Positions 21,598-35,964 of a stretch of DNA of 64,000 bases are shown one piece after another (the first letter of the stretch is position 1; each line of letters opens with the position of its first letter). The stretch spans positions 3,720,001 through 3,784,000 of the forward strand of contig NZ_CP082928.1 of assembly GCF_023517795.1 (NCBI RefSeq), written 5' to 3'. The translations under genes were made by a program, and so were the position numbers. The DNA comes from Pseudomonas fulva. GTDB lineage: Bacteria > Pseudomonadota > Gammaproteobacteria > Pseudomonadales > Pseudomonadaceae. The notes below the pieces were generated by a model that had not been told where the DNA came from, did no database searches, and saw only the letters and a list, made by a program, of their open reading frames with translations.

Positions 21598-21745
21598 AAA
21601 ACGCTATTTGTCGGAAATTGGTTTCTTATTTGCGCGCGGCAAACCGGCAAATATCAAATTAATTTCCCGGCCGTTCTCTTAGCATATTCACTTTGATCCG
21701 CCGTTGCAGGCGGCCCCTCTGCTGATCCACAACGGCCGTTATCCC

Positions 21746-22876
21746 ATGACTGAGCGCTACTTCGACTATGCCGCCACCACGCCCATCGACGATGACGTGA
21801 TCCAGGACATGCTCGCCCACATGGGCCGCGATAGCACCTTCGGCAACCCCGCGTCGGCCTCCCACTCGTTCGGCCAGCGCGCCCGCCGTGCGGTTGAAAA
21901 GGCACGCCGGCAGGTCGCCGACCTGGTGGGCACCAGCGCCGACAACCTGGTGTGGACTTCCGGCGCCACCGAATCCAACAACCTGGCGCTCAAGGGCGTA
22001 GCCGCCGCGGCGCAGGGACGCCGGCATATCGTCACCAGCAGCCTGGAACACAAGGCGGTGCTGGATACCGCCCGGCAACTGGAGCTCGACGGCTTCGAGG
22101 TGACCTGGCTGCAACCGGATGCCGAGGGCCTGATCCAGCCCGAGGCCGTGGCGGCGGCGCTGCGGGACGACACCCTGCTGGTGTCGCTGATGCGGGTCAA
22201 CAACGAGCTGGGCACCCTGACCGATATCGCCGCGATTGGCGAGCGGGTGCGTCAGCGTGGTGCGCTGTTTCATGTGGATGCCGCCCAGGCGACCGGCAAG
22301 GTGGCGATCGACCTGGCGGGCCTGGCCGTGGATTTGATGTCGTTCTCGGCGCACAAGACCTACGGCCCCAAGGGCATCGGCGCGCTGTATGTGGGTGAAC
22401 GGGCACGGCCGCTGATCCAGGCGCAGATTCATGGCGGCGGCCATGAGCAGGGGCTGCGCTCCGGCACCCTGGCCACCCACCAGATCGTCGGCATGGGCAG
22501 CGCGTTCGCACGGGCCGGCGCGCTGATGGAGGAGGAAAACCGGCGCATCACCGGACTCGCGGCGCAGCTTCGCGAAGGCCTGCTGAGCCTGCCGGGCGTG
22601 CGCCTCAATGGTTGTGCCAGGCAGCGGGTGCCGCACACGCTCAACCTGTGCATCGACCACCCCTGGTTCAACGTCGAGAGCCTCAGCGGCAGCCTGGCGT
22701 TCTCCTCCACCTCGGCGTGCAATTCGGCCAGCAGCGCACCGTCGCACGTGCTGCTGGCGCTGGGGCTGGATGCTACCCAGGCGTATCGCAGCATTCGTCT
22801 GAGCCTGGGGCGCTACACCACGCTCGAGGATGTCGAGGCTGCCACGGATGCGGTTCGGCAGTGCCTGCCACAGTGA
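21746..22876 (+). CDS. Class V aminotransferase, NifS/IscS-like cysteine desulfurase
   Basis: 376 aa. Family hallmarks: YFDYAATTPIDDDV start, SGATESNNLALKG, PLP Lys204 in SFSAHKTYGPKG, and a Cys325 in SSTSACNSASSAPSHVL corresponding to the persulfide loop. It may supply sulfur by desulfurating cysteine, or act on another amino acid. It stands alone, with no isc, suf or tRNA-thiolation genes beside it. Divergence from an AsnC regulator suggests amino-acid control. ATG 21746 (MTERYFDYAAT) is the family-normal start. Confidence 0.88.
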   Translation: MTERYFDYAATTPIDDDVIQDMLAHMGRDSTFGNPASASHSFGQRARRAVEKARRQVADLVGTSADNLVWTSGATESNNLALKGVAAAAQGRRHIVTSSLEHKAVLDTARQLELDGFEVTWLQPDAEGLIQPEAVAAALRDDTLLVSLMRVNNELGTLTDIAAIGERVRQRGALFHVDAAQATGKVAIDLAGLAVDLMSFSAHKTYGPKGIGALYVGERARPLIQAQIHGGGHEQGLRSGTLATHQIVGMGSAFARAGALMEEENRRITGLAAQLREGLLSLPGVRLNGCARQRVPHTLNLCIDHPWFNVESLSGSLAFSSTSACNSASSAPSHVLLALGLDATQAYRSIRLSLGRYTTLEDVEAATDAVRQCLPQ

Positions 22877-23304
22877 TGTGTTGAGCAACGCTTAACGCTG
22901 TTCATGTGCTGTTCGAGCAGCGTATCCAGCCACCATGCTGTGACGGCAGCGCGCCGAGTATCCCCCCAGAAAGCCTGGCAGACATATGTCCGTCAGGTGC
23001 ATAGCGTTCACAGTACCCCGATCGCTCACGCCTAAAAACACGACCACCAGGCGCCGCTTCGAGGTTTCCCTGGGGGTACTGAGGGCGTGATCAAACAGCG
23101 CCTCAGGCCTCGCACTGTGAGGCTCCTGGCCGTTTTTTATATACGCTAAAGTTTTCTTGAGAAGCTCAGTCTATACCGCTCGTTTATATATTTAGCGGAA
23201 TTAATTCGTTCGGAATCGACGCCTTCTAGGCTAGGTTAGCGGCTATCCGTAGGCACCACAGGCCAGTTCTGTGAGCTGCTCACAGCTACCTTATAGGCCG
23301 CCGA
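22877..23304. other. 428-bp intergenic region upstream of the GntR operon
   Basis: No credible gene. The left part is GC-rich. A GCCTC/GAGGC hairpin about 23108-23124, followed by a T-run near 23133-23138, may terminate the class V gene. The right part is AT-rich (23132-23210). It carries CGCTAAA at 23144-23150 and its exact inverse TTTAGCG at 23191-23197, a plausible promoter/operator zone for the GntR operon. Confidence 0.4.
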
Positions 23305-24033
23305 ATGTCGTTATCCATTGCCTCCACCTCCCAGCCAGCCGACAGCACCAGTCAGGGTGATTCGGCTTACGCTCGCATTCGTCGTGACATCCTCTCCTGC
23401 CGTCTGATGCCGGGTGCATTGATGACCGAGCCAGGGTTGATGGAGGCCTATGGCATCGGCAAGAGCAGTTGCCGCATCGCCCTCACTCGTCTCGCTCACG
23501 AAGGCTTTATCCAGTCGTTGCCGCGCAAGGGCTATCAGGTGGCGCCGGTCACCGTGAAGGATGTCGAGGAGGTGTTCACCTTGCGTGTGCAGCTCGAGCC
23601 ACTGGCCGCTCGCCTGGCGGTCGGGCGCGTGGATATCGAGCGCCTGCGGGTGCTGGAAGCGGCCTGCCGGGTACGCCATCCGGTGCCGCTGCCTGATCAG
23701 ATCGATGTGTTCATGGACGCCAACAAGGCATTCCACCTGGAGATCGCCAGGGCTGCCGGCAATGAGCGCCTGTTGCGCACCCTGTCCGGGCTGATGGACG
23801 AGATGACTCGCCTGGTGGCGCTGGGCTTCAACGTCCAGGGCACCAAACCGGAAATCAAGCATGATCACAACGCGATGATCGCCGCATTCGAAGACGGCGA
23901 TGGCAAGCGCGCCGAACTGATTGCCCGCCGGCATATCGAGACCTTTCAGGCCATGACGCTGGAAAAGGTCTATGCCAGTCTCAGCGAAGCCGGCGCGTCG
24001 CTGCCACTGTTGGCCGCGAGATTGGCCCGATGA
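23305..24033 (+). CDS. GntR family regulator (FadR/FCD type)
   Basis: 242 aa. Winged helix about residues 20-85 (AYARIRRDILSCRLMPG, YGIGKSSCRIALTRLAHEGF, LPRKGYQVAPV), then an all-helical FCD effector domain with the metal-type His residues (FHLEIARAAGNERLL, RRHIETFQAM). It is the first gene of a long operon and overlaps the next by ATGA, so the regulator is cotranscribed with the transport and catabolic genes. Probably a repressor relieved by the operon's carboxylate substrate. Confidence 0.92.
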   Translation: MSLSIASTSQPADSTSQGDSAYARIRRDILSCRLMPGALMTEPGLMEAYGIGKSSCRIALTRLAHEGFIQSLPRKGYQVAPVTVKDVEEVFTLRVQLEPLAARLAVGRVDIERLRVLEAACRVRHPVPLPDQIDVFMDANKAFHLEIARAAGNERLLRTLSGLMDEMTRLVALGFNVQGTKPEIKHDHNAMIAAFEDGDGKRAELIARRHIETFQAMTLEKVYASLSEAGASLPLLAARLAR

Positions 24034-24791
24034 ACGCGGCGCTGCAGCAGCACCTTGCGACAGCGGCGATCAGCCTGCATAGAGTCGGCAAGCGCTTCGA
24101 AGCACTGGAGGTGCTGCGTGATATTTCCTTCGACGTCGGGCAGGGTGAAATAGTCGCGCTGCTGGGCACGTCGGGGTGCGGCAAAAGCACCTTGCTAAAC
24201 ATCGTATCCGGTCTGTTGGCTCAGGATCAGGGGCAACTTCGCCTCTTTGGTGAAGCCACGGCGGCGTTCAGTGACTGGCGCCGCATCGCCTACCTGTTCC
24301 AGGAGGACCGCCTGCTGCCCTGGCGCAGCGTGCAGGCCAATGTCGCCTTTGGGCTGGAGGGTACCGGCATCGCCAAGGCGGAACGTGACCAGCGGGTTGC
24401 CGAGGTGTTACGCCTGGTGGGCCTGGAGGCCTTCGCGAAAGCCTGGCCACATCAGTTGTCCGGCGGCATGCGCAGCCGCGTGGCCCTGGCGCGCAGCCTG
24501 GTGGTCAAGCCCCAGGTGTTGCTGATGGACGAGCCGTTTTCCAAGCTCGATCCGCAGACCCGCAGTCAGATGCACGATGAGCTGCTGTGCCTGCAGGCCC
24601 TCACCGGGATGACGGTGCTGTTCGTCACCCATGATGTGGAGGAGGCCGTGGTCCTGGCTGACCGAGTGGTGGTGCTGGAGCCGCGCCCCGGGCGCATTCG
24701 CGCGATTCACTCGATGGCCTTGCCACGCCCGCGGGTGCCCACCGAGCCTGCCGTCAGCGAGCAGGTGCGCCGCCTGCGCCTGGAGGTCTGA
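24030..24791 (+). CDS. ABC transporter ATPase, NitT/TauT/SsuB type
   Basis: 253 aa. Walker A GTSGCGKST, Q-loop FQEDRLLPW, signature LSGGMRSRVALARSL, Walker B LLMDEPFSKLD, switch His in FVTHDVEEA. The N-terminus begins inside the GntR gene (ATGA). With the following permease and binding protein it forms a complete importer of the nitrate/taurine/sulfonate class, whose members also import aromatic acids, thiamine precursors and other small organics. The substrate is not evident. Confidence 0.95.
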   Translation: MNAALQQHLATAAISLHRVGKRFEALEVLRDISFDVGQGEIVALLGTSGCGKSTLLNIVSGLLAQDQGQLRLFGEATAAFSDWRRIAYLFQEDRLLPWRSVQANVAFGLEGTGIAKAERDQRVAEVLRLVGLEAFAKAWPHQLSGGMRSRVALARSLVVKPQVLLMDEPFSKLDPQTRSQMHDELLCLQALTGMTVLFVTHDVEEAVVLADRVVVLEPRPGRIRAIHSMALPRPRVPTEPAVSEQVRRLRLEV

Positions 24792-24792
24792 T

Positions 24793-25557
24793 GTGGATAC
24801 CGCCAAGCGATTTTCCAGCCTCGCCCTGCAACGCTTCGCCCTGATCGCCGTGGTCGGTCTGCTCTGGTGGTACGCCGCGAGCCGCCTGCCATCGTTCGTC
24901 TTGCCCGGGCCGGAGAGGGTCTTCGCCGCGCTCGGCAGTCTGCTGCACAGCGACACCTTCTGGCGTGACCTGAGCGCCACCCTCGGGCGCGTGTTCAGCG
25001 GCTTCGCCCTGGCCACGCTGGTGGGCACGCCCTTGGGGCTGGCACTGGGTAGCAGCCCGGCGCTGGCACGCTTCTTCGAACCGGTGCTGTCGGTGTTCAA
25101 CACCGTTTCGTCGGCGATCTGGGCGATCTTCGCGATCATCTGGTTCGGCATTTCCGATGCCACCACGGTGTTCGTGGTGTTCATGACCGCCATGCCGCTG
25201 ATCCTCACCAATGTCTGGCAGGGCGCGAAGACGGTGGAGCGGCAATACGTGGAGCTGGCGCGCTCGTTTCGCCTGTCGCGGTTGCAGATCCTGCTGAAGA
25301 TCTCCCTGCCGAGCATTCTGCCGTACTTCTTTTCCGGCGCACGCCTGGCGTTCGGCTTTGGCTGGCGGGTATCGCTGGTGGCCGAGACCCTCGGCGCCTC
25401 CGATGGCATCGGTTATCGGCTGCGCCAGGCCGCGGATCTGGTGCAGAGCGATCAGGTATTCGCCTGGACCGTGCTGCTGGTCGCCCTGATGTTGTCGCTC
25501 GAGGCGGGTGTGCTCAAGCCCCTCGAGCGTCGGCTGTTCCGTTGGAAAACCCCCTAG
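24793..25557 (+). CDS. ABC transporter permease, NitT/TauT type
   Basis: 254 aa, about six membrane helices, starting with a hydrophobic helix (ALIAVVGLLWWYAAS). The EAA cytoplasmic loop reads ELARSFRLSRLQILLKISLPSILP. GTG 24793 is chosen: GGAGG lies 6 bases upstream and the previous stop ends one base before it; the open frame extending upstream overlaps the ATPase gene and is spurious. It pairs with the ATPase at 24030. Confidence 0.93.
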   Translation: MDTAKRFSSLALQRFALIAVVGLLWWYAASRLPSFVLPGPERVFAALGSLLHSDTFWRDLSATLGRVFSGFALATLVGTPLGLALGSSPALARFFEPVLSVFNTVSSAIWAIFAIIWFGISDATTVFVVFMTAMPLILTNVWQGAKTVERQYVELARSFRLSRLQILLKISLPSILPYFFSGARLAFGFGWRVSLVAETLGASDGIGYRLRQAADLVQSDQVFAWTVLLVALMLSLEAGVLKPLERRLFRWKTP

Positions 25558-25576
25558 TTCTATCAAGGATCACTCC

Positions 25577-26560
25577 ATGCGTAAGTTGATTGCCGTCGCG
25601 GCCCTCGCCGCGAGCGCGGTGCTGCCTCTTGCTGCCCATTCGGCGGACAAGGTCCGCATCGGTTACTGGACCAGCGGCGTGAGCCTGGGCTACGGCTCGG
25701 TGCTCGAGTCCAAGGATTTCCTCGCCAAGCGCGGTATCGAGGCCGAGTTCGTGCACTTCCCCGACGTCAATGCGCCGATTCGCGCACTGGCGGCCGGCTC
25801 CATCGACCTGGCGTTCGGCGCCCCCCTGGCCGGGGTGTTCTCGACCGCCGCCGAAGGCGTGCCGATCCGTATCTTCGCCGCGACCCAGCCGGCCGACGTG
25901 CAGTTCGTGGTGCCGGCCGACTCGCCAATCACCTCGCTGGCCGAGCTCAAGGGCAAGAAGATCGGCATGTCGCCGGCAGGCTCGTCGGTGGCGGTGATCG
26001 CTGGCGCGGTGTTGGCGGGCAACCATGGCATCAAGGCCAATGATTTCTCCCTGGTCGGCGGCAACGAGTCGCGCCTGGCGCAGTTCCTGGCGCAAAAGCA
26101 GGTCGATGGCGCGGCCCTGCGCTCGGTCACCATCGCGCAGCTCGAAGACGAATTGAAGGTCAAGCGCCTGGGCAGCTTCGCCGAGGAATGGAAGACCCTC
26201 ACGCACGCCGATGCAGTGCCGTACATCGGCGTTGGCACGGTCGCCGCCAAGCTGGTCGACGACCAGCCGGAGGTGGTTGCCCGCGTCATCGCCGGCCTGC
26301 GCGACACCCTCGCCTGGGGCAAGGCGAACCCGGATGAAGTCGTCCGCATCCTGCAGCAGAGCGCCAACCTGCCCGAGCAGGATGCCCGCGTGTACGTCGG
26401 CCAGTGGGATGCTATGAACCGCATCGCCTTCGAACCGGCGGACATCGAGACCCTGCGCCGTCAGCACCAGGTGTTCGTCGACGGCGGCCTGATCAAGGGC
26501 GAACTCAAGGACGACCTGTTCGCCACCGAACCCTACACCCAAGCCAAACACATCCACTAA
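25577..26560 (+). CDS. ABC transporter substrate-binding protein, NitT/TauT type
   Basis: 327 aa. Sec signal peptide of about 23 residues ending AHSA. Then an SsuA/ThiY-type bilobed fold: VRIGYWTSGVSLGYG, DVNAPIRALAAGSIDLAFGA, LKGKKIGMSPAGSS. It has AAGGA 7 bases before the ATG. Periplasmic partner of the permease and ATPase upstream, completing importer 1 of this operon. The ligand pocket cannot be assigned from sequence. Confidence 0.93.
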   Translation: MRKLIAVAALAASAVLPLAAHSADKVRIGYWTSGVSLGYGSVLESKDFLAKRGIEAEFVHFPDVNAPIRALAAGSIDLAFGAPLAGVFSTAAEGVPIRIFAATQPADVQFVVPADSPITSLAELKGKKIGMSPAGSSVAVIAGAVLAGNHGIKANDFSLVGGNESRLAQFLAQKQVDGAALRSVTIAQLEDELKVKRLGSFAEEWKTLTHADAVPYIGVGTVAAKLVDDQPEVVARVIAGLRDTLAWGKANPDEVVRILQQSANLPEQDARVYVGQWDAMNRIAFEPADIETLRRQHQVFVDGGLIKGELKDDLFATEPYTQAKHIH

Positions 26561-26577
26561 TCACGGAGACAACGACT

Positions 26578-27594
26578 GTGAGCAAGACCATGAAAGCCCT
26601 GGTACTCGACGAACACGGCGACCTCGACCAGTTGCGCGTCGTCACTGATAAGCCGATACCGGCAGTGGGCAGCGGACACGTGGTAATTCGCGTTGGCGCA
26701 TCGTCCTTCAATTACCACGACGTCTTCACGGTGAAGGGCATGCCCGGCATCAAGGTGCCGCTGCCGGTGGTCATCGGCCTCGACCTGGCCGGCACCATCA
26801 GCGAACTGGATGAAGGCGTGGAAGGGTGGAAAGTCGGTGACCGCGTGCTGATCAACCCGCTGAAACCCGATGTCGGCCTGATGGGCGAAATGGTCGATGG
26901 CGGCATGGCCGAGTACGCTCGCGTCGATGCACGGCAACTGATCCGCCTGCCCGATGCGGTGAGTTTCGAACAGGCAGCGGCCTTGCCGGTAGCCTACGGC
27001 ACCGCCCACCGCATGCTGATCACCCACAACACCGTGAAGGCCGGGGACCGCGTGCTGATCCTCGGCGCCAGCGGCGGTGTGGGCACCGCCTGCGTGATCC
27101 TCGCCAAACTGCTGGGCGCCGAGGTGATCGCCTGTGCCGGCAGTGACGAGAAGGGCGAGCGCCTCAAGGCGCTGGGCGCCGACCACGTCATCAACTACCG
27201 CGACACTGACTTCTCCAAATGGGCCATCGCCCAGTACGGCAAGCCGCAGCGCCGTACCTACGAAGGTGGCGTGGACGTGGTGATCAACTTCACCGGCGGC
27301 GACACCTGGCTGCCCTCGCTCAAGTGCATCAAGCGCGGCGGCACGCTGCTGGTGTGCGGCGCCACCGCCGGCCACGACCCCAAGGAAGACCTGCGCTATG
27401 TGTGGAGCTTCGAGCTCAACATCAAGGGCTCGAACAGCTTCTACGAAGACAACCTGGTCGGCCTGCTCGACCTGATCGCCGAGGGCAGGATCGACCCGAT
27501 CATCGACCGCGTCCTGCCCCTCGAACAGGCCGCCGAAGGCCTGGCGCTGATCCGTGACCGCGAAGTGCTGGGCAAGGTGGTCATCACGCCCTGA
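26578..27594 (+). CDS. Zinc-type MDR alcohol dehydrogenase/quinone oxidoreductase
   Basis: 338 aa, medium-chain dehydrogenase/reductase. GroES-like N-terminus (SSFNYHDVFTVKGMPG, VIGLDLAGTISEL) and a Rossmann half with ILGASGGVGTACVILAKLLGA. The structural-zinc Cys cluster is missing and catalytic ligands are not obvious, so an enoyl/quinone reductase role is possible. GTG 26578 has GGAG 10 bases upstream; ATG 26590 would be too far. Located 17 bp after the binding-protein gene. Confidence 0.9.
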   Translation: MSKTMKALVLDEHGDLDQLRVVTDKPIPAVGSGHVVIRVGASSFNYHDVFTVKGMPGIKVPLPVVIGLDLAGTISELDEGVEGWKVGDRVLINPLKPDVGLMGEMVDGGMAEYARVDARQLIRLPDAVSFEQAAALPVAYGTAHRMLITHNTVKAGDRVLILGASGGVGTACVILAKLLGAEVIACAGSDEKGERLKALGADHVINYRDTDFSKWAIAQYGKPQRRTYEGGVDVVINFTGGDTWLPSLKCIKRGGTLLVCGATAGHDPKEDLRYVWSFELNIKGSNSFYEDNLVGLLDLIAEGRIDPIIDRVLPLEQAAEGLALIRDREVLGKVVITP

Positions 27595-27614
27595 CCGGCC
27601 TGCAGCGACCCGTA

Positions 27615-27648
27615 CCGTGCAATCGTCCGTTTGCGGGCGATTGCACGG
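27615..27648 (+). other. Intra-operon hairpin
   Basis: 15-bp stem (CCGTGCAATCGTCCG pairing with CGGGCGATTGCACGG, one G-U) and a TTTG loop, in the gap between the MDR and thioesterase genes. No T-run follows, so it may be an mRNA-stability or processing element or an attenuator. Confidence 0.7.
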
Positions 27649-27678
27649 CCTCCGAAACAACTCAACAGGATTGATCTC

Positions 27679-28101
27679 ATGAGCGAAACGACACTTCCGA
27701 GCGCTGCCGACATCCAGGCCAAGCTGCTCAAGGGCCCCTATCACCAATGGCTGGGCCTGCAGGTTCAAGGGGTGGGTGAGGGCAGCATCGAACTCAGCGC
27801 GACATGGCGCGAAGAATGGGTGGTCAACGTCGAAGGTGGCTACACCCATGGCGGCATACTCGCCGCACTGGTCGACCTGACCGCGGACTGGGCGCTGGTG
27901 TCCAAGACCGGCAAGGGCGTGCCGACCATCGACCTGCGCGTCGATTACCACCGCCCGGCCAAGGGCGATCTGCGCGCCAAGGGCACGGTCATCAAGTTCG
28001 GCAAGCAGTTCTCGGTGGCCGAGGCGCAGGTCTTCGATGGCGAAGGCAACCTGGTCGCCAGTGGCCGCGGGGTCTATGCCACGCCTGCACCGAAGGCGTG
28101 A
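27679..28101 (+). CDS. PaaI family hot-dog thioesterase
   Basis: 140 aa. Hot-dog domain with GGYTHGGILAALVDLTADWAL, where PaaI-type enzymes place the catalytic Asp/Gly helix, and VDYHRPAKGDLRA. It hydrolyses acyl- or aroyl-CoA. Start ATG 27679 has CAGGA upstream. Five bases separate it from the VOC gene. With an acyl-CoA synthetase in the operon it may release stalled CoA esters or the final acid. Confidence 0.9.
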   Translation: MSETTLPSAADIQAKLLKGPYHQWLGLQVQGVGEGSIELSATWREEWVVNVEGGYTHGGILAALVDLTADWALVSKTGKGVPTIDLRVDYHRPAKGDLRAKGTVIKFGKQFSVAEAQVFDGEGNLVASGRGVYATPAPKA

Positions 28102-28105
28102 TTCC

Positions 28106-28894
28106 ATGAGTGCGGTACTGGATCACCTGGTCATCAACGCGCGCTTCGCTCTCGATGGGGCGGCAGAGGTATTCGCGGGGCTGGGGTTCACCCTCACGCC
28201 CCGGGGGCAGCATTCCCTCGGCTCGATCAACAACCTGATCATGTTCGCCGAGGGCTACCTGGAGCTGATCGGCTTGCCGGCCGGGGGCGAGCGTCTGCGG
28301 CAGGAAATTCTCGACAGTCCCCTCGGCATCGATGGCCTGGTGCTGGCCAGTGAAGACCCGCGCCGCACCCATGCGGCCCTGGTGCAGGCCGGTTTTCTGG
28401 TGCAGCCGGTGCAGCATTTCTCCAGGCCGGTGGAGGTCGATGGGGCCTCTGTTGAGGCACGCTTCGGCACCGTCCGGCTGCTGCCCGGGCAGTTCGATGC
28501 AGGCCGCGTGTACTTCTGCCATCACCAAACCCCCGAGTTGGTCTGGCGGCCCGAGTGGCTGGGCCATGCCAATGGCGTACACAGCATCGAACGACTGACG
28601 GTGGTCAGCGAGCAGCCGGTGCAGACGCGCGAGCTATTCGAGCGCCTGGGGCGCTTCGATGGGCGTTTCGCACTCGAGGTCATCGACGCGCAGGCCTGGC
28701 GCGCCCGGGTTGTTCAGACGCCAGAGGCCGGACAAGCGCGGCCGGAGCGTTTCGTGTCGATCGGCTTGCGCGGTGGTGACCCGGCGGATCTGGCGCAGCG
28801 TGCGGCGAGTCTTGGTTTGCCCCATCGGCAGGCGGCAGACCGGGTGGTGATTGCCATCCCGGCGTTCGCCACCGTACTGGAGTGCCTGGCATGA
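28106..28894 (+). CDS. VOC/glyoxalase-like protein
   Basis: 262 aa. It opens with LDHLVINARFALDGAAEVFAGLG, as in the Glyoxalase_3 branch of the vicinal oxygen chelate fold, and has ERLTVVSEQPVQTRELFERLG as a second repeat. Possible metal ligands include His in LDHLV and Glu in YLELIG. Members include isomerases, dioxygenases and lyases; the reaction is unassigned. It overlaps the adenylating enzyme gene by ATGA. Confidence 0.85.
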   Translation: MSAVLDHLVINARFALDGAAEVFAGLGFTLTPRGQHSLGSINNLIMFAEGYLELIGLPAGGERLRQEILDSPLGIDGLVLASEDPRRTHAALVQAGFLVQPVQHFSRPVEVDGASVEARFGTVRLLPGQFDAGRVYFCHHQTPELVWRPEWLGHANGVHSIERLTVVSEQPVQTRELFERLGRFDGRFALEVIDAQAWRARVVQTPEAGQARPERFVSIGLRGGDPADLAQRAASLGLPHRQAADRVVIAIPAFATVLECLA

Positions 28895-30426
28895 ACCCGC
28901 AGACCCGTAACCTGGGCCGCGTGCTCGACCCGCTGGTCTCCGGCGAGCGACTGGCGTTCATCGGTCTGGACAATCAGCTCAACGAGTCGCGTTGCAGCTA
29001 TGCCGAGCTGGATGCGCTGGCCGATGGTATCGCCCGTGGCCTGCTGGCCCGTGGGCTGGTGGCCGGAGAGCGCGTCGCGCTGCTGGCGTTCAATTCGCCG
29101 GCATCGATCGCCGCGCTGCTGGGCATCATGCGTGCCGGGCTGGTGGCGGTGCCGGTCAACCACCGCTTCCCGAAGGCGCTGATCGACTTCGTCATCGCCG
29201 ACAGTGGTGCGCGCCTGCTGTTCTGCGATGCGTTCCATGAACAGGTTGCCGCGGGCAGGGCCTGGGTGTCGCTGGAGGCGGAGGGCCTCGAGGCATTCAC
29301 CGAGCCCGGGGCGTTCAGCGCCTTCGAACCCGAGGGCGACGAGCCGGCGATGATGCTCTACACCTCGGGCTCCACCGGCAAACCCAAGGGTGTGGTGCTG
29401 AGCCACCGCGCCCACTTGTGGATCGTGCGCACCCGGTTGCAGGCCACGCCGCTGGCCGATGAGCGCACGCTGATCGCCGCGCCCTTGTATCACATGAATG
29501 CCCTGGCCCTGGCGCTGCTGGTGCTGGCCAGCGGGGCCACCGCGGTGCTGCTGCCGCAGTTCGGCGCTGCGGCCTACATCGAGGCGATCCAGCGTTACCG
29601 TTGCACCTGGCTGACCGCCGTGCCGCCGATGATCGCCATGATGCTGCGCGAGCAGGCGCTGCTGGCGCATGCCGACCTGTCCTCGGTACGGGTGGTGCGT
29701 ATGGGATCGGCGCCGGTGAGCGCCAGCCTGCTGGCGCAGATTCACCGTTTGCTGCCCAATGCGCGGGTCATCAACGCCTACGGCACCACCGAAGGCGGGC
29801 CGGTAGTGTTCGGGCCTCACCCTCAGGGCCTGCCCAGCCCGGCGCTGTCGGTGGGGCATGCCCATCCGGACGTACAGGTGCGCCTGCGTGACGAGGCGGG
29901 CGCGCTGGCCGACGAGGGCGTGCTGGAGCTGAAAAGCCCGGGCTTGATGTCCGGCTATCACAACCGCCCGGATCTGGCCGTACCGTTCACGGTCGATGGT
30001 TTCTATGTTACCGGCGACGTGTTTCGCCGGGATGCCGACGGCTTCCATACCTTCGTCGGCCGCCGTGACGACATGTTCGTCAGTGGCGGCGAGAACATCT
30101 ACCCCGGTGAGGTGGAAAAGCTTCTCGAGCGTCACCCCGAGGTGCAGCAGGCCTGCGTGGTGCCGGTCGAGGACGAGATCAAAGGGTTCAAGCCCATGGC
30201 CTTCGTCGTCCGGCGCCAGGGCAGTGCTGTCGGGGAGGCGGCCATCAAGGATTTCGCCCTGGCCCATGCACCGGCCTACCAGCATCCGCGTCGGGTGTGG
30301 TTCCTCGATAGCCTGCCGCTGGCCTCCACCCACAAGATCGACCGCAAGGCCTTGCTCGACAGGGCTCGGCGAAACCTCCTGGACAGTGACCGGACCACCG
30401 GACCGTCTGAATCGCAATCTGCCTAG
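28891..30426 (+). CDS. Acyl-CoA synthetase (AMP-binding ligase)
   Basis: 511 aa, ANL superfamily. P-loop-like MLYTSGSTGKPKG near residue 152, NAYGTTEGGP (A5), TGDVFRRDADGFHTFVGRRDD (A7-A8) and STHKIDRKALL with the C-terminal catalytic Lys (A10). It activates a carboxylic acid as acyl-adenylate, then as CoA ester. It shares an ATGA overlap with the VOC gene. As the only CoA-forming enzyme in the operon it probably begins catabolism of the imported acid. Confidence 0.94.
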   Translation: MNPQTRNLGRVLDPLVSGERLAFIGLDNQLNESRCSYAELDALADGIARGLLARGLVAGERVALLAFNSPASIAALLGIMRAGLVAVPVNHRFPKALIDFVIADSGARLLFCDAFHEQVAAGRAWVSLEAEGLEAFTEPGAFSAFEPEGDEPAMMLYTSGSTGKPKGVVLSHRAHLWIVRTRLQATPLADERTLIAAPLYHMNALALALLVLASGATAVLLPQFGAAAYIEAIQRYRCTWLTAVPPMIAMMLREQALLAHADLSSVRVVRMGSAPVSASLLAQIHRLLPNARVINAYGTTEGGPVVFGPHPQGLPSPALSVGHAHPDVQVRLRDEAGALADEGVLELKSPGLMSGYHNRPDLAVPFTVDGFYVTGDVFRRDADGFHTFVGRRDDMFVSGGENIYPGEVEKLLERHPEVQQACVVPVEDEIKGFKPMAFVVRRQGSAVGEAAIKDFALAHAPAYQHPRRVWFLDSLPLASTHKIDRKALLDRARRNLLDSDRTTGPSESQSA

Positions 30427-30437
30427 GACCTACCACC

Positions 30438-31502
30438 ATGCGCTTTGCTATCCGTTCCTTGCTGCCCCTGACGCTGGCCGTTGCCAGCCAAGCCCATGCC
30501 CTCGACGAGGTCACCGTCGCCCTGGCCATTCCACCAGCCGTCCACGACGGCGCGCCTTACGCTGCAGCCCAGGAGCTGGGCCTGTTCAAGGAGCAGGGGC
30601 TGAGTGTCAGTACCCTGGTGTTCCAGGGCGCCGGCGCCTTGCTTCCGCAGGTCGCCAGCAAGCGGGTGACCTTCGGTTTTCCGGTGGCTGAACCGGTGCT
30701 CTCCAGCCACTTCAACAAGAACCCCTTGCCGCTGCGCTACTTCTACAACGGCGTTCCCAGCCAGACCCTGGAATACCAGGTGCTCGCCGATTCGCCGATC
30801 AGGACCCTGGCCGATCTCGAGGGCAAGAAGATCGGTGTCGGCGCCCTGACCTGGGGCACGCTGCCCAACAGCCGCGCGGCCCTGCGCGTCGCCGGGCTGG
30901 AGCCTGGCAAGAACGTCGAGTTCGTCGCCGTCGGCGCGCTCGGCGCGGGCTTCCAGGCATTGCGCAGCGGCCAGGTGGATGCGCTCAACTTCAACAACAG
31001 CTGGGGCGACATGCTCGAGCTTTCCGGCACGCAAACCCGGCGCATCCAGTACCCCGAGGTGTTCCAGGAAAACCCCGGCAACGGCTTCATCGCGCACCAG
31101 GATACCTTCAGAGAAAACCCGGACCTGATCCGCCGCTTTGGTCGTGCCTATACCGAGGCACAGTTCGTGTGCGAGGTGAACCCGGCGTTCTGCGTGCAGG
31201 CGTTCTGGCGCCAGCATCCGGAAAGCAAGCCTGCCGATGCCCAGGGCAAGGGCCTGGAAGATGCCAAGACGCTGCTCAGCCGGCGCCTGCAACGTACCCT
31301 GTATTTCCCGGACGGCAGCCCGCGTGTGCCGGGGCAGTACGACCTGCAGGCGATCCGCGCGGCGGTCAAGGCGATGGCCGAGGCGGGCGAGTTCCCCAGC
31401 GCCGAGGTGCCGGTGGAGCAGGTGTTCTCCAACGAGTTCGTGCCGGCGTTCAACGACTTCGACCGTGATGCGCTGCGCAAGCGGGCAGAGGCGGCGCAAT
31501 GA
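30438..31502 (+). CDS. Second ABC substrate-binding protein, NitT/TauT type
   Basis: 354 aa. Signal peptide of about 21 residues ending AHA, then VTVALAIPPAVHDGAPYAAA, LADLEGKKIGVGAL and FQALRSGQVDALNFNN typical of SsuA/TauA-like proteins. Only weakly similar to the binding protein at 25577, and with a long C-terminus, so it probably recognises a different ligand. Its stop overlaps the next ATG (ATGA). It belongs with the ATPase and permease at 32803 and 33554. Confidence 0.92.
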   Translation: MRFAIRSLLPLTLAVASQAHALDEVTVALAIPPAVHDGAPYAAAQELGLFKEQGLSVSTLVFQGAGALLPQVASKRVTFGFPVAEPVLSSHFNKNPLPLRYFYNGVPSQTLEYQVLADSPIRTLADLEGKKIGVGALTWGTLPNSRAALRVAGLEPGKNVEFVAVGALGAGFQALRSGQVDALNFNNSWGDMLELSGTQTRRIQYPEVFQENPGNGFIAHQDTFRENPDLIRRFGRAYTEAQFVCEVNPAFCVQAFWRQHPESKPADAQGKGLEDAKTLLSRRLQRTLYFPDGSPRVPGQYDLQAIRAAVKAMAEAGEFPSAEVPVEQVFSNEFVPAFNDFDRDALRKRAEAAQ

Positions 31503-32806
31503 ACCCGGCATTCGAGATCGACATTGTCGATGGCCTGATCGACCAACCGCGGCGCATTCGCGTAGGGGGGCTGAACCCGGGGCTGGCGCGCCTGACCACC
31601 ACCCTGGAGCATCCCGATGGCAGCCTCTGGCAGAGCGAAGCCCGCTTCGACATCGCGGCCGACGGTGCACTAGATATCGATGCACAGCTGCCATTCGATG
31701 GCGACTGGAGCGAGCGGGAAGCGCTGGCGCCCGTGTGGGCGTTGCGTCAACTGAGCCCGCCCCGCAGGCCGCAAGCCAGCGAAGGGCTGGAGCCGCTGTC
31801 GATTCGCTTGCAGATCCGCGACGCGGCAGGGGCCAGTGCCTCGGCCACGCTCACCCAGCGCTTTCTCGCCCCCGGCGTGAGCCGCCGGGAAATTCGCGAC
31901 GAGGGGCTCAGCGCCAGCTTGTTCAGCCCCGCGGCTGCGGGCCCTCATCCTCTGGTCATCGTGCTCAACGGTTCGGGTGGCGGCACGCCGGAACAACGTG
32001 CAGCGCTGTATGCCGCACAGGGTTACACAGCATTGGCGCTGGCCTACTTCAAGGCGCCGGGGCTGCCTGAGCAAATTAGCGACACGCCACTGGAGTACTT
32101 CGAGCAGGCGCTGAACTGGGCGGCGCGCACGCTGCAGCCGCGACACGGTTTCATCGCCGTCGCCGGGCTGTCGCGCGGCGGTGAGCTGGCGTTGCTGCTG
32201 GGCGCCACCTTTCCCGAGCGGGTATCGGCGGTGATCGGCTACGTACCGAGTGCGGTGATTCACGGCACCTTGCGTGCCGGGCGCCCGGAGCAAGCCCGCG
32301 ACGCCGATGCCTGGACCTGGCGTGGCCAGCCGCTGCGCAATGTCTGGCGGGACAACCCGGCAGCCGACTGGCGGGCCTTCGACCAGCCACCCGAGCCCGG
32401 CGCGGCGATTCGCCAGGCGCCGGCGTTCGTGGCGGTGGAGGCACATGCCGCCAGTGTCGAGGCGGCGCGTATCCCGGTTGAGCGTATCGAGGGGCCGGTG
32501 TTGCTCATCTCGGGCAGTGACGATGGCTTCTGGCCGTCCAGCGCCTACAGCGAGCGCATGCAGGCCGAACTGCAGGCGGCCGGCCATGCCTGGCCGGTCA
32601 CCCATGTGCGCGGCGAAGGGGCGGGCCACGCCATCGGCTTTCCGTTTGTGCCGACCACCCAGATCGCTAAGGTTCATCCGGTTGCCGGGGTACTGATCAG
32701 CGGCGGCGGCACCCCTGTCGCCAATGCCCGGGCCAACCGCGAAAGCTGGCACGCCGTGCTGGCCTTCCTTGCCGATGCGCTGCGTGCCCGCGAGGCGCAG
32801 TCATGA
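31499..32806 (+). CDS. Acyl-CoA thioester hydrolase/BAAT-type alpha/beta-hydrolase
   Basis: 435 aa with the two-domain BAAT/acyl-CoA thioesterase layout. An N-terminal immunoglobulin-like region is followed by an alpha/beta-hydrolase. Catalytic parts: GLSRGGELALL with Ser225, ISGSDDGFWPS (acid), and GEGAGHAIGFP (His). The family acts on acyl-CoA, transferring to amino acids (glycine or taurine) or hydrolysing. It is embedded between binding-protein and ATPase genes with ATGA overlaps on both sides, so it is cotranslated. Confidence 0.88.
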   Translation: MNPAFEIDIVDGLIDQPRRIRVGGLNPGLARLTTTLEHPDGSLWQSEARFDIAADGALDIDAQLPFDGDWSEREALAPVWALRQLSPPRRPQASEGLEPLSIRLQIRDAAGASASATLTQRFLAPGVSRREIRDEGLSASLFSPAAAGPHPLVIVLNGSGGGTPEQRAALYAAQGYTALALAYFKAPGLPEQISDTPLEYFEQALNWAARTLQPRHGFIAVAGLSRGGELALLLGATFPERVSAVIGYVPSAVIHGTLRAGRPEQARDADAWTWRGQPLRNVWRDNPAADWRAFDQPPEPGAAIRQAPAFVAVEAHAASVEAARIPVERIEGPVLLISGSDDGFWPSSAYSERMQAELQAAGHAWPVTHVRGEGAGHAIGFPFVPTTQIAKVHPVAGVLISGGGTPVANARANRESWHAVLAFLADALRAREAQS

Positions 32807-33561
32807 GCGCGGCCCTGACCCTGCAGGACACAGGGCTGACCTACCAGACCCGACGTGGCGAGATCCAGGCCCTGGCCGAGGTGAACCTGCGCATCGAAGA
32901 CGGCGAGTTCGTGGCCGTGCTCGGGCCTTCGGGCTGCGGCAAGTCCACCATCCTCAAGCTCGCGGCGGGCTTGCTCGAGGCCAGCGCCGGGCAGGTCAGC
33001 GTGGCCGGGCAGGGCATCGACGGCCCGAGCCGGCACACCGGCGTGGTATTCCAGAAGCCCAATCTGCTGCCCTGGAAAACCGTGCTGAACAACGTGATGC
33101 TGCCGGCACGTACCCTCGGCCTGCCGATCGCCGAGGCGCGTCAGCGGGCACTGGCATTGCTCGAGCTGGTCGGCCTCGCGCCGTTCGCCAACGATTACCC
33201 GTTCGAGCTGTCGGGCGGCATGCAGCAGCGGGTCGGCATCGCCCGCATGCTGCTGCACGACCCGCGCCTGCTGCTGATGGACGAGCCGTTCGCGGCCCTC
33301 GATGCGCTGTCCCGCGAAGCGCTGACCCTAGAGCTGCAGCACATCTGGAGCCAGCAGCGTAAATCGGTGCTGTTCATTACCCACAGCATTCAGGAGGCGG
33401 TGTTCCTGGCCGACCGGGTGCTGGTCATGTCGCCGCGACCTGGTCGCATCATCGACGATGTGGCAATCACGCTGCCGCGGCCCCGTAGCCTGGACACTCT
33501 GGTCGATCCAACTTTCACCGCATTTTGCCAACAGCTGAGAAGGCATTTCACCCATGCGTAG
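32803..33561 (+). CDS. Second ABC ATPase, NitT/TauT type
   Basis: 252 aa. Walker A GPSGCGKST, Q-loop FQKPNLLPW, signature LSGGMQQRVGIARML, Walker B LLMDEPFAALD, switch FITHSIQEA. It starts inside the BAAT-type gene (ATGA) and overlaps the permease gene by 8 bp. Partner of the permease at 33554 and binding protein at 30438, giving importer 2 of the operon. Confidence 0.95.
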   Translation: MSAALTLQDTGLTYQTRRGEIQALAEVNLRIEDGEFVAVLGPSGCGKSTILKLAAGLLEASAGQVSVAGQGIDGPSRHTGVVFQKPNLLPWKTVLNNVMLPARTLGLPIAEARQRALALLELVGLAPFANDYPFELSGGMQQRVGIARMLLHDPRLLLMDEPFAALDALSREALTLELQHIWSQQRKSVLFITHSIQEAVFLADRVLVMSPRPGRIIDDVAITLPRPRSLDTLVDPTFTAFCQQLRRHFTHA

Positions 33562-34330
33562 ACTGCTGCCCGTGCTTTACCCCCTGACCAGCCTGGCGGT
33601 ATTGATCCTGATCTGGGACCTGTCCGTACGCCTGCTGGACATTCCCGATTATCTGCTGCCCGCCCCAGTGACGGTCTACCAGGCGCTGGCCGGCGGTTTC
33701 GCCGATGGCAGCCTGTGGCCACACATCGGCGTCACCCTGGGCGAAACGCTCAGCGGCTATGCCATTGGTTGTCTGCTGGCCATCACCTTGGGCGCCTTGC
33801 TGGCCGAGTCAGAAACCTTCGAGCGCTTCGTTTACCCGCTGCTGATCGGCCTGCAGGCAACCCCAAAGGTCGCCCTGGGACCGATCATTCTGGTGTGGTT
33901 CGGCTTCGGCATGACCTCCAAGATCGTGCTGGTGGCGCTGGTCTGTTTCTTCCCGCTGTTCGTCAACACGGTAAACGGCATTCGGCGTACCGACCCGGAG
34001 CTGCTCGACGCCTGCCGGTCCTTTTCCGCCTCGCGGCTTTACCTGCTGGTTCACGTGAAGTTCCCGGCCGCGGCCGGCGAGGTATTCGCCGGCCTGCAGA
34101 TCGGTGTGTCGCTGGCGTTGATCGGCGCGGTGGTCGGTGAATTCCTGTCGGCCCAGCGCGGTCTCGGTTACCTAATTGCCTCCAGCTCGGTGAGCATGAG
34201 CCTGGCGACCATGTTCGCCGGGGTCATCCTGCTGGCCTTCATCGGCCTGTGCGGGGCACAGGGCGTGCGCTGGCTACAGCGCCGCGTAATCTTCTGGGAG
34301 CCGGGCGCCGCCCGGCCCCGTAAACAGTGA
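33554..34330 (+). CDS. Second ABC permease, NitT/TauT type
   Basis: 258 aa, about six membrane helices, first at residues 8-25. The EAA loop is DACRSFSASRLYLLVHVKFPAAAGEV. 8-bp overlap with the ATPase gene. Together with 30438 and 32803 it forms a second complete importer, distinct in sequence from that at 24030-26560. Confidence 0.94.
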   Translation: MRRLLPVLYPLTSLAVLILIWDLSVRLLDIPDYLLPAPVTVYQALAGGFADGSLWPHIGVTLGETLSGYAIGCLLAITLGALLAESETFERFVYPLLIGLQATPKVALGPIILVWFGFGMTSKIVLVALVCFFPLFVNTVNGIRRTDPELLDACRSFSASRLYLLVHVKFPAAAGEVFAGLQIGVSLALIGAVVGEFLSAQRGLGYLIASSSVSMSLATMFAGVILLAFIGLCGAQGVRWLQRRVIFWEPGAARPRKQ

Positions 34331-34341
34331 AGGAGCGTTTC

Positions 34342-35964
34342 ATGTCGTTCGATTGGCGCAACCCCTACCCGACAACCCGTATTCCGTTGTTCGCCCGCAA
34401 TGTGGTGTCGACCTCCCATCCCATTGCGGCCCAGGCCGGACTGCGCCTGCTGCTGGCCGGCGGCAACGCCGTGGATGCAGCCATCGCCGCGGCTGCCACC
34501 CTGACCGTGGTCGAACCGGTTTCCTGCGGGTTGGGCAGTGATGCCTTCGCCCTGGTGTGGGACGGCGACTCGCTGCACGGGCTCAACGCTTCCGGTACCG
34601 CGCCCGGCGCCTGGACACCCGAGTATTTTCGTCGGCGCTATGGAGAGGACGGCCATGGCCATGCGAAACGGCCCGTGCGTGGTTGGGATTCGATCACCAT
34701 ACCCGGCGCGGTAGCCGGTTGGGCCGCGTTGCACGAGCGTTTCGGCAAGCGCCCCTTCGCCGAGGTGCTGGCGCCGGCGGTGGAGGTAGCCGAGCGCGGC
34801 ATCACCATCGCCCCGATCGTGGCGCACAAGTGGGCGGCAGCGGTTCCCGAACTGCAGGGCCAGCCGGGTTTCGCCGATGCCTTCATGCCCCATGACCGGG
34901 CGCCGCAGACTGGCGAGAAATTCGTCTTCGCCGATGCCGCGCGCACCTTGCGGTTGCTGGGCGAGCAGGGCGCACGTGCGTTCTACGAGGGTGAGATCGC
35001 CGAGGCTATCATCGGCCACGCCCGGGCCACGGGTGGCAATCTCACCGCCGCTGATCTACAGGGGTATCGCCCTGAGTGGGTCGCACCGATTTCACAGCGT
35101 TACCGTGGTTGCGAGGTGCACGAGATCCCGCCGAATGGCCAGGGCATTGCGGCACTCATCGCGCTGGGCATTCTCGAACACTTCGACCTGGCGGCTCTGC
35201 CGGTCGACTCGGCGGCGTCCCAGCACCTGCAGATCGAAGCCATGAAGCTGGCCTTCGCCGACGTTTACCGCTACGTCGCCGACCCGCGCAGCATGGAGGT
35301 CACCCCCGAGCAGATGCTCGAGCCGGCGTACCTCGCGCAGCGCGCCAGGGCCATCGACCCGCGCAAGGCCAGCCACCCGGGCTTCGGCCTGCCCAGGTCG
35401 GGCGGTACCGTGTACCTCAGCGTCGCCGACGAGGACGGCATGATGGTGTCCTTTATCCAGTCCAACTACATGGGCTTCGGCTCCGGCATCGTGGTGCCGG
35501 GGTATGGCATCAGCCTGCAGAACCGCGGTGCCGGGTTTTCCAGTGACCCGGCTTCGGCCAACGTGGTGGCGCCCGGCAAGCGGCCGTTCCATACCATCAT
35601 CCCGGCATTCCTCACCCGTGACGGTGTGGCGCAGATGAGTTTCGGCGTGATGGGTGGCGACATGCAGCCCCAGGGCCATGTACAGACCCTGGTGCGCATG
35701 CTTGATTACCAGCAGCAGCCCCAGGCGGCCTGCGATGCGCCACGCTGGAAGGTCAACCGGGATTTCTCGGTGGACCTGGAGGCCAGCATGGATGCCGATG
35801 CCATACGCGGGCTGGAGGAATTGGGCAACCGTCTGAAGTCCGTGGAGGACCCATACATGGACTTCGGTTCCGGGCAGTTCATCTGGCGGCTGTCGGATGA
35901 TCCTGCCCATGGCTATGTGGCTGCCAGCGACAGCCGTCGGGACGGACAGGCAGTAGGTTTTTGA
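34342..35964 (+). CDS. Gamma-glutamyltransferase-like Ntn hydrolase
   Basis: 540 aa. GGT/acylase family: AGGNAVDAAIAAAATLTVVEP near the N-terminus, the maturation site GG-Thr356-VYLSVADEDG (aligned with the nucleophile Thr of GGTs) and VMGGDMQPQGHVQ. There is no signal peptide, so it would be cytoplasmic, unlike periplasmic Ggt. It may cleave a gamma-glutamyl or other amide bond in the imported compound. ATG 34342 with AAGGAGCG just upstream. Last gene of the operon begun at 23305. Confidence 0.9.
   Translation: MSFDWRNPYPTTRIPLFARNVVSTSHPIAAQAGLRLLLAGGNAVDAAIAAAATLTVVEPVSCGLGSDAFALVWDGDSLHGLNASGTAPGAWTPEYFRRRYGEDGHGHAKRPVRGWDSITIPGAVAGWAALHERFGKRPFAEVLAPAVEVAERGITIAPIVAHKWAAAVPELQGQPGFADAFMPHDRAPQTGEKFVFADAARTLRLLGEQGARAFYEGEIAEAIIGHARATGGNLTAADLQGYRPEWVAPISQRYRGCEVHEIPPNGQGIAALIALGILEHFDLAALPVDSAASQHLQIEAMKLAFADVYRYVADPRSMEVTPEQMLEPAYLAQRARAIDPRKASHPGFGLPRSGGTVYLSVADEDGMMVSFIQSNYMGFGSGIVVPGYGISLQNRGAGFSSDPASANVVAPGKRPFHTIIPAFLTRDGVAQMSFGVMGGDMQPQGHVQTLVRMLDYQQQPQAACDAPRWKVNRDFSVDLEASMDADAIRGLEELGNRLKSVEDPYMDFGSGQFIWRLSDDPAHGYVAASDSRRDGQAVGF

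Follow-up and report, generated by a model that had tools for sequence, protein, structure and literature searches.

Importers of the NitT/TauT type, which include SsuABC, TauABC, NrtABC and ThiXYZ-type systems, combine an NMT1-like binding protein with one permease and one ATPase, and two importers of this make-up occur together in the locus described here. The locus also encodes a member of the ACOT/BAAT family, in which BAAT proper (bile-acid N-acyltransferase) employs a cysteine nucleophile and the ACOT thioesterases a serine nucleophile. It lies in a 64,000-nucleotide window of the 5.44-Mb single-contig genome of Pseudomonas fulva (NZ_CP082928.1, positions 3,720,001 to 3,784,000; coordinates below are those of the window unless a genome is named), and forms a run of 13 genes on the + strand at 23305-35964. 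Computational comparison with other genomes reveals that the gene set falls into two modules, that these co-occur in a one-way manner, that they share a palindrome, and that core enzymes of the first module are found elsewhere with other importers. A literature search at the level of titles and listings gave no description of this operon, in keeping with the original prediction made from the DNA letters, which recognized no pathway with this gene set.

All 13 open reading frames (ORFs) are intact. The gaps between successive genes are, in order, -4, 1, 19, 29, 84, 4, -4, 11, -4, -4, -8 and -4 nt, which gives five overlaps of 4 bases, one of 8 bases and a widest gap of 84 nt; the final overlap holds only if the last gene starts at the GTG at 34327, an alternative ATG being present at 34342. 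The genes are presumably carried on one transcript. No promoter-like site for the operon was found, and terminator-like sites were no commoner than in shuffled sequences (11 versus 8.1 +/- 3.1). Module 1 comprises genes for a GntR/FCD regulator (23305-24033), the ATPase (ATP1, 24030-24791; ABC_tran), permease (PERM1, 24793-25557, GTG start; BPD_transp_1) and binding protein (SBP1, 25577-26560; NMT1) of importer 1, an MDR oxidoreductase (26590-27594; ADH_N and ADH_zinc_N), a PaaI-like hotdog thioesterase (27679-28101; 4HBT), a Glyoxalase_3 protein of the VOC type (28106-28894) and an AMP-forming acyl-CoA ligase (ACS, 28891-30426; AMP-binding). Module 2 comprises genes for the second NMT1-like binding protein (SBP2, 30438-31502), a BAAT/ACOT-type hydrolase (hereafter BAAT, 31499-32806; Bile_Hydr_Trans and BAAT_C), and the ATPase (ATP2, 32803-33561; ABC_tran) and permease (PERM2, 33554-34330; BPD_transp_1) of importer 2. 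The last gene encodes an Ntn hydrolase resembling gamma-glutamyltranspeptidase (GGT) (34327-35964, the stop codon ending at 35964; G_glu_transpept). Assignments are from Pfam, supplemented by family scans for ATP1, PERM2, ACS and the thioesterase.

Relatives of the operon were collected with an alignment-based scan that used the BAAT protein as query, and the best 80 of 247 confirmed loci were analysed; that all 80 contain BAAT is thus a consequence of the search itself. Genes in these loci were picked by codon scoring and their presence was called by identity thresholds that we set. A BAAT relative was the only gene above the thresholds in 38 of the 80 loci, which were left out of the module counts, whereas one or more additional operon genes are present in the other 42. 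All seven constant genes of module 1 (GntR, ATP1, PERM1, SBP1, MDR, PaaI and ACS) are present in 35 of the 42, and the same 35 hold all four genes of module 2 (SBP2, BAAT, ATP2 and PERM2). The 13-gene order of the window is retained in ten of these full loci, nine from Pseudomonas and one from Corticimicrobacter, the nearest relatives in the BAAT scan being Pseudomonas sp. PA27, PA15 and P. flavescens. Fifteen others form a single run that lacks the VOC and GGT genes, three a single run that lacks GGT only, and six, all from Enterobacterales, two divergent blocks in which GGT adjoins ACS in module 1; in the remaining locus (L053) BAAT is on the opposite strand. Since 10 of the 80 loci retain the order and 35 of the 80 have every gene other than VOC and GGT, the 13-gene arrangement is more than chance, and the run of named families given in the original prediction is borne out by the ORFs, the Pfam matches and this conservation.

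Six further loci contain a full module 2 with an incomplete module 1. One of these (L035) is a 3.7-kb contig, L035 and L049 both being short or cut contigs, and another (L063) is short of a recognizable GntR gene only. In the other four (L021, L050, L062 and L083), module 2 stands alone in the fetched flanks, and module 1 is on another contig in all four genomes. Pairwise distances among 36 sequences agree better within modules (r = 0.85-0.89) than between them (r = 0.62-0.76), and the operon is therefore a composite of two modules.

The dependence of one module on the other was examined in 268 genomes from the family of one Achromobacter genome, in a search that was not based on BAAT. SBP1 is present in 32 of these genomes (49-77% identity) and SBP2 in 33, of which 27 have a match of at least 46% identity and six only one at 36-39%. 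All 27 genomes with a near SBP2 are among the 32 with SBP1, where about three joint occurrences would be expected if the two were independent and kinship is ignored. Five of the 32 SBP1 genomes (G766, G870, G871, G880 and G892) have no SBP2 match at an E value of 1e-60, and four of them (G870, G871, G880 and G892) have none at 1e-40 either, G766 being outside that search; the SBP1 locus of G766, a genome that was searched, was left out of the fetched loci. Module 2 thus looks like an add-on to module 1, since a near SBP2 comes with SBP1 in every case and SBP1 can occur by itself. Module 1 is also found without module 2 on a Methylobacterium plasmid, where the search covered the plasmid only. 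The system is rare, as BAAT occurs in 6 of 298 genomes of the window's genus, with near relatives only in the window's genome and in G186, SBP2 in 1 of 369 genomes of the window's class (the window itself), and BAAT in 11 of 72,556 plasmid records, all below 60% identity. No match to the SBP2-BAAT stretch of L025 was found in E. coli genomes at blastn sensitivity. The BAAT gene of the near relative G186 (L154 and L160) may be broken, since it appears as two neighbouring pieces that are 90% and 84% identical. A variant operon (L191, 12420-14652) has two tandem SBP2 genes that are 55% and 70% identical to that of the window.

As in an autoregulated operon of the GntR/FCD type, a conserved palindrome stands upstream of the regulator gene. 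This perfect 15-base palindrome, TGTGAGCNGCTCACA, is located at 23270-23284, 20 nt before the GntR gene, and is the single perfect copy in the genome. The usual half-site pattern of GntR regulators is T.GT...AC.A, which matched just two of the upstream stretches; the palindrome was found through shared words. Upstream regions of 461 nt around the called GntR start (400 upstream and 60 inside) were compared with dinucleotide shuffles for the window, 35 of the 80 loci and L104-L107, a set of 40 that is not independent in that upstream DNA is shared by descent. The palindrome occurs with at most two mismatches in 36 of the 40 regions and with at most one in 26, and in none of 800 shuffles. Another stretch that resembles an operator, CTTGAGAAGCTCAGT, has the core TGAGN3CTCA and is present at 23156-23170, its start being 114 nt upstream of that of the main palindrome. 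Two cores, with one mismatch allowed in each, are 109-115 nt apart in 28 of the 40 regions and in none of 1000 shuffles, and this recurrent spacing of the second core suggests that DNA looping might be involved in control.

Stronger evidence is provided by the unlinked copies of module 2, since relatives share their upstream DNA by descent. The palindrome precedes three of the four copies, without mismatch at L050 and L083 and with one mismatch at L062, and was not found at L021. In genome-wide searches that allowed one mismatch, G004 has only two sites, one before each module, and G002 has three, two of which stand before the modules; the reversed palindrome gave no sites in the four genomes searched (G001-G004). 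The third site in G002, a Caballeronia, has one mismatch and lies away from both modules (L141 position 6698; G002:C1:469697). No further regulon member stands out in the host genome, where the other three sites have two mismatches each and the reversed control gives four. From these distributions the palindrome TGTGAGCTGCTCACA is the probable operator of GntR, and both modules probably constitute one regulon. The original prediction had taken separable halves as an argument against its reading. The halves are indeed separable, being unlinked in four genomes and divergent in the six Enterobacterales loci, and with SBP1 alone in five of 32 genomes, but they still belong together, and the co-occurrence and the shared palindrome make them one system, with module 1 as its core and module 2 as an add-on.

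The importers themselves offer few clues to a substrate. All six proteins exceed the Pfam gathering scores for NMT1-like, BPD_transp_1 or ABC ATPase families, which places both importers in the NitT/TauT type, and the two are different and complete, as originally predicted, with binding proteins whose nearest solved folds differ. The AlphaFold model of SBP1 (29 sequences, pLDDT 91.7) is closest in Foldseek to PqqT, SsuA and TauA, and that of SBP2 (31 sequences, pLDDT 91.3) to thiamin- and formylaminopyrimidine-binding proteins. Since the top fold matches are only about 20% identical (9-23% among the matches listed), the attempt to assign ligands from a PDB sequence search and from AlphaFold and Foldseek was rejected as yielding distant relatives only. 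No curated cut-off for a characterized importer family was reached by the five importer proteins scanned (all but ATP2, with ATP1 judged on the best 25 of 187 families), so that the match to a characterized transporter that would have spoken against the original prediction did not appear. Identity with taurine, sulfonate or nitrate importers was rejected on scores of 210.3 of 357 for TauB, 114.6 of 347 for SsuC, 110.7 of 342 for TauC and 107.4 of 209 for NtrB, and membership of the SsuA subfamily on a score of 106.7 of 163.5.

Among the enzymes, BAAT possesses both PF04775 and PF08840, which places it in the ACOT/BAAT family, and its predicted nucleophile is Ser225 in a G-L-S-R-G motif instead of the cysteine of BAAT proper. 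The MDR oxidoreductase has no cysteine before residue 168 and so lacks the usual zinc ligands, which presumably speaks against zinc and for a reductase of C=C bonds or quinones. It is invariant at 172 of 335 positions in 37 sequences, the top share in the constant set, with GGT alike over 17 sequences, and it scores below the cut-offs of the acryloyl- and crotonyl-CoA reductase equivalogs (152.3 of 500 for NF041172, 111 of 440 for AcuI and 168.9 of 378.6 for crotonyl-CoA reductase). The PaaI-like protein exceeds the cut-off of the generic hotdog thioesterase family TIGR00369 (87.7 of 36.6) and falls below that of the hydroxyphenylacetyl-CoA thioesterase TIGR02286 (27 of 118.9).

The GGT-like protein retains the catalytic threonine, as Thr356 (counted from 34342) in the motif PRSGGT aligns with E. 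coli Thr391. Its nearest structure is 2nlz, and it scores 348.5 against the cut-off of 357.85 of the curated model TIGR00066. In a hand-counted alignment with 2e0w, Ser, Tyr, Arg, Gly, His and Thr replace Arg114, Asn411, Gln430, Asp433, Ser462 and Ser463, so that the canonical gamma-glutamate pocket, whose residues in E. coli GGT are named in a review (PMC8062742), is not preserved. Inspection of the sequence found no hydrophobic stretch at the N-terminus, which upholds the earlier claim that a signal peptide is lacking. That review describes intracellular GtGGT-type enzymes with the same Ser and His-Thr replacements, and states that no role has been assigned to YwrD (PMC8062742). The window's protein agrees with this GtGGT/YwrD-like intracellular group in the Ser for Arg114, the His-Thr for Ser462-Ser463 and, by sequence, the missing signal peptide. 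A suggestion that it is wholly without gamma-glutamyl chemistry was accordingly toned down, since GtGGT-type enzymes carry like replacements (PMC8062742). The host genome has a second GGT-like gene (L139; genome positions 3173725-3175272, - strand) that is 49% identical and adjoins an ABC-type ATPase gene.

Genes for ACS, MDR, PaaI and VOC recur together in genomes where the transport genes differ. In Methylobacterium they accompany GntR and importer 1 (MDR 77% and ACS 64% identical, the palindrome having one mismatch), in Sodalis another ABC importer (MDR 57%, ACS 44%), in Paenibacillus a NitT/TauT-like importer (MDR 51%, ACS 35%) and in Tistrella a TRAP importer (MDR 53%, ACS 29%); the VOC proteins of Sodalis and Paenibacillus share only a Pfam family with that of the window. 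Near the set in Sodalis, Paenibacillus and Tistrella, Pfam matches identify M20 hydrolases, and Methylobacterium has such a gene on the opposite strand, some 5 kb past ACS. A CN hydrolase gene is found beside module 2 at L021, whose genome is the only one of 20 without a GGT match at an E value of 1e-60 (a 30% relative is present), and another follows PERM2 at L048, in a genome with a GGT homologue of 70% identity as well. An independent pair is seen in Ketogulonicigenium, where a GGT gene (54% identical to that of the window) overlaps a BAAT gene. Judged by family matches, amide hydrolases of three folds thus recur near these genes, if not always.

A hint of the substrate comes from variants of module 1. 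At L197, a pair of Rieske oxygenase genes directly follows SBP1 and a UbiD decarboxylase gene is beside an ACS-VOC-PaaI-MDR run; the Rieske alpha subunit best matches terephthalate dioxygenase (426 bits; 397 of 750 with the AndAc model), and UbiD best matches 6h6v (276 bits). The genes of L199 match those of L197 in size and order. A class II aldolase is encoded within the variant operons L190 and L191, and another kind of aldolase upstream of GntR in four loci (L040 was scanned). Because of the Rieske and UbiD genes and the aldolases in variant operons, an aromatic or heteroaromatic acid is our best guess for the substrate, from few loci.

Taken together, a tentative explanation, to which we give somewhat less than an even chance, is that the operon specifies two-tier, GntR-controlled scavenging of one carboxylic acid, the free form being taken up through module 1 and a bound form through module 2. 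SBP1, PERM1 and ATP1 would import the free acid and ACS would activate it to a CoA thioester, which MDR would modify, most likely by saturating a C=C bond, as would VOC in some manner; PaaI would then release the acid or recover CoA. SBP2, PERM2 and ATP2 would import the bound form of the same acid, BAAT would open its ester or thioester bond and the GGT-like enzyme, where present, an amide bond, and the acid freed in this way would feed module 1. Every reaction in this scheme, like the nature of the substrate, is something that we infer. A broader version, somewhat less likely, is that ACS, MDR, PaaI and Glyoxalase_3 form a portable CoA-ester cassette, distributed from Proteobacteria to Paenibacillus and joined to varied importers and amide hydrolases, which together with a detachable module 2 for the bound form of the same, probably aromatic, acid constitutes a two-tier catabolic regulon of a kind so far undescribed, in which linked and unlinked modules alike are governed by one palindromic operator.

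Several observations weigh against these proposals. With a ligase and a thioesterase encoded side by side in the operon, the thioester would be made and cleaved in a futile cycle if it were not altered in between. Of 14 fetched SBP2 loci of one family, just 6 have BAAT on the same strand within the module-2 run and four (L190 and L193-L195) lack it in the 19-kb stretch, so BAAT is not obligatory for importer 2. The VOC gene is present in 19 of the 35 full loci and missing from 16, and GGT is present in 16 and missing from 19. The full amide-cleavage set of the original prediction was therefore overstated; its suggestion that free and conjugated forms are taken up is plausible as the best fit to a core and add-on system, but a strict version of it is weakened by these counts for BAAT and GGT. 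A search for a missing amidase among flank genes, one gene in each of ten loci, found one at L048 only, which is also the only one among the seven of these loci without GGT. Homologues of GGT that are 68-74% identical occur elsewhere in 18 of 20 genomes in fetched stretches free of the palindrome, for which reason GGT may have no special tie to the operon; one more of the 20 (G012) has a homologue elsewhere at 48%. Often these homologues adjoin a recurrent set of genes whose sizes and order resemble those of a further importer. As to the regulon, G001 has one site with at most one mismatch, before module 1 only, and G003 one such site, before module 2, with a two-mismatch site at module 1. The aromatic hint, finally, comes from L197 and its look-alike L199, in both of which neither SBP2 nor a palindrome with up to two mismatches was found.

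Alternatively, each importer could take up a different free acid of a related pair, or the two could cover different concentration ranges of a single acid, with BAAT acting as a second, CoA-recycling acyl-CoA thioesterase and no conjugate involved. This is rather unlikely. The ACOT-like domains and serine motif of BAAT are as for an acyl-CoA thioesterase, and the occurrence of importer 2 without BAAT at L190 and L193-L195 and the 19 full loci without GGT point the same way, but the four unlinked copies of module 2 keep BAAT with importer 2 and not with the ligase (these loci having been found through BAAT), and paralogues of BAAT in the type-B clusters described below sit with Dpp-type importers and no ACS, MDR and PaaI set. 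It is quite unlikely that module 2 has a purpose unrelated to that of module 1 and merely responds to a common signal; the partly separate histories of the modules and the five of 32 genomes with SBP1 and no SBP2 could be read in this way, but a near SBP2 was never seen without SBP1, either among the family genomes (27 of 27) or in the four genomes with unlinked modules.

A distinctly unlikely possibility is that the imports are glutathione or gamma-glutamyl adducts, in which case VOC and BAAT would act on the thiol adduct and GGT or a Nit1-type amidase would remove the gamma-glutamyl group. The fold of GGT, 5-oxoprolinase-type genes near the Methylobacterium and Ketogulonicigenium copies, and the L021 CN hydrolase, which exceeds the cut-off for 'deaminated glutathione amidase' (434.8 versus 355) and has a relative at L048, argue for such substrates. 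They are set against the replacement of the residues that hold gamma-glutamate, though the GGT class still includes related intracellular enzymes, the M20 hydrolases near the core set elsewhere, a ligase without an obvious role and a gene set with no glutathione transferase. It is highly improbable that the operon simply scavenges sulfonates, taurine or nitrate and that its enzymes are passengers: the importer parts do resemble the Tau, Ssu and Nrt families, and SBP1 folds like SsuA and TauA, but the equivalog cut-offs are missed by the proteins scanned (for example 210 versus 357 for TauB and 115 versus 347 for SsuC), no gene for a sulfonatase, a TauD-like enzyme or nitrate reductase is among the 13, and all 35 full loci contain a CoA ligase. 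If two-tier scavenging is true, the operon would represent a new class of pathway in environmental and plant-associated bacteria and would give functions to proteins now labelled 'PaaI family', 'VOC family', 'BAAT C-terminal' and 'GGT family'. In view of the common palindrome and the one-way dependence, the idea lends itself to direct tests, as two binding proteins and one regulator would define the substrate and the genomes with unlinked modules allow the two to be separated.

Outside the operon, a gene for an IscS/NifS-like cysteine desulfurase that scores under the IscS equivalog cut-offs lies upstream on the + strand (21704-22876). Elsewhere in the host genome (genome positions 115283-144198), eight adenylation-domain matches in open frames of up to 4937 codons are probably part of a large nonribosomal peptide synthetase (NRPS) cluster.

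Compared with described NitT/TauT systems, to which it is related in fold through SsuA, TauA and PqqT (SBP1) and thiamin-precursor binders (SBP2), the operon differs in placing two importers under one regulator, in having CoA-ester enzymes in place of sulfonatases or reductases, and in reaching no curated equivalog cut-off with the five proteins scanned. Its BAAT resembles the ACOT/BAAT acyl-CoA thioesterases in both Pfam domains and in the serine motif, but is tied to a NitT/TauT importer and not to lipid metabolism, as far as the sequence tells. The GGT-like gene, alike in its replacements and missing signal peptide to the GtGGT/YwrD group as characterized in PMC8062742, differs in standing beside importers and a CoA ligase. 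Uncharacterized type-B clusters, mostly from Burkholderiales (L052, L054-L061, L064-L082 and L084-L093, with the match near position 10001 in most), encode BAAT paralogues of 45-50% identity together with LysR, a flavoprotein, a Dpp-type importer and CMD/AhpD-like proteins of the Avi_7170 and Avi_7169 kinds; in the loci scanned (L061 and L052), the CMD_Avi_7170 cut-off was reached and those of Avi_7169 and TIGR04028 were missed. VOC homologues of the operon type also adjoin TIGR04028/luciferase-like monooxygenase clusters on Pantoea and Rhizobium plasmids (L150 and L151). The type-B and TIGR04028 clusters differ from the window's operon in their Dpp-type importers and monooxygenase or flavoprotein genes, and the type-B loci also in having no palindrome with up to two mismatches. 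L197, with Rieske and UbiD genes placed within its version of module 1, resembles pathways for aromatic acids of the phthalate and terephthalate type; the window's operon has none of these genes.

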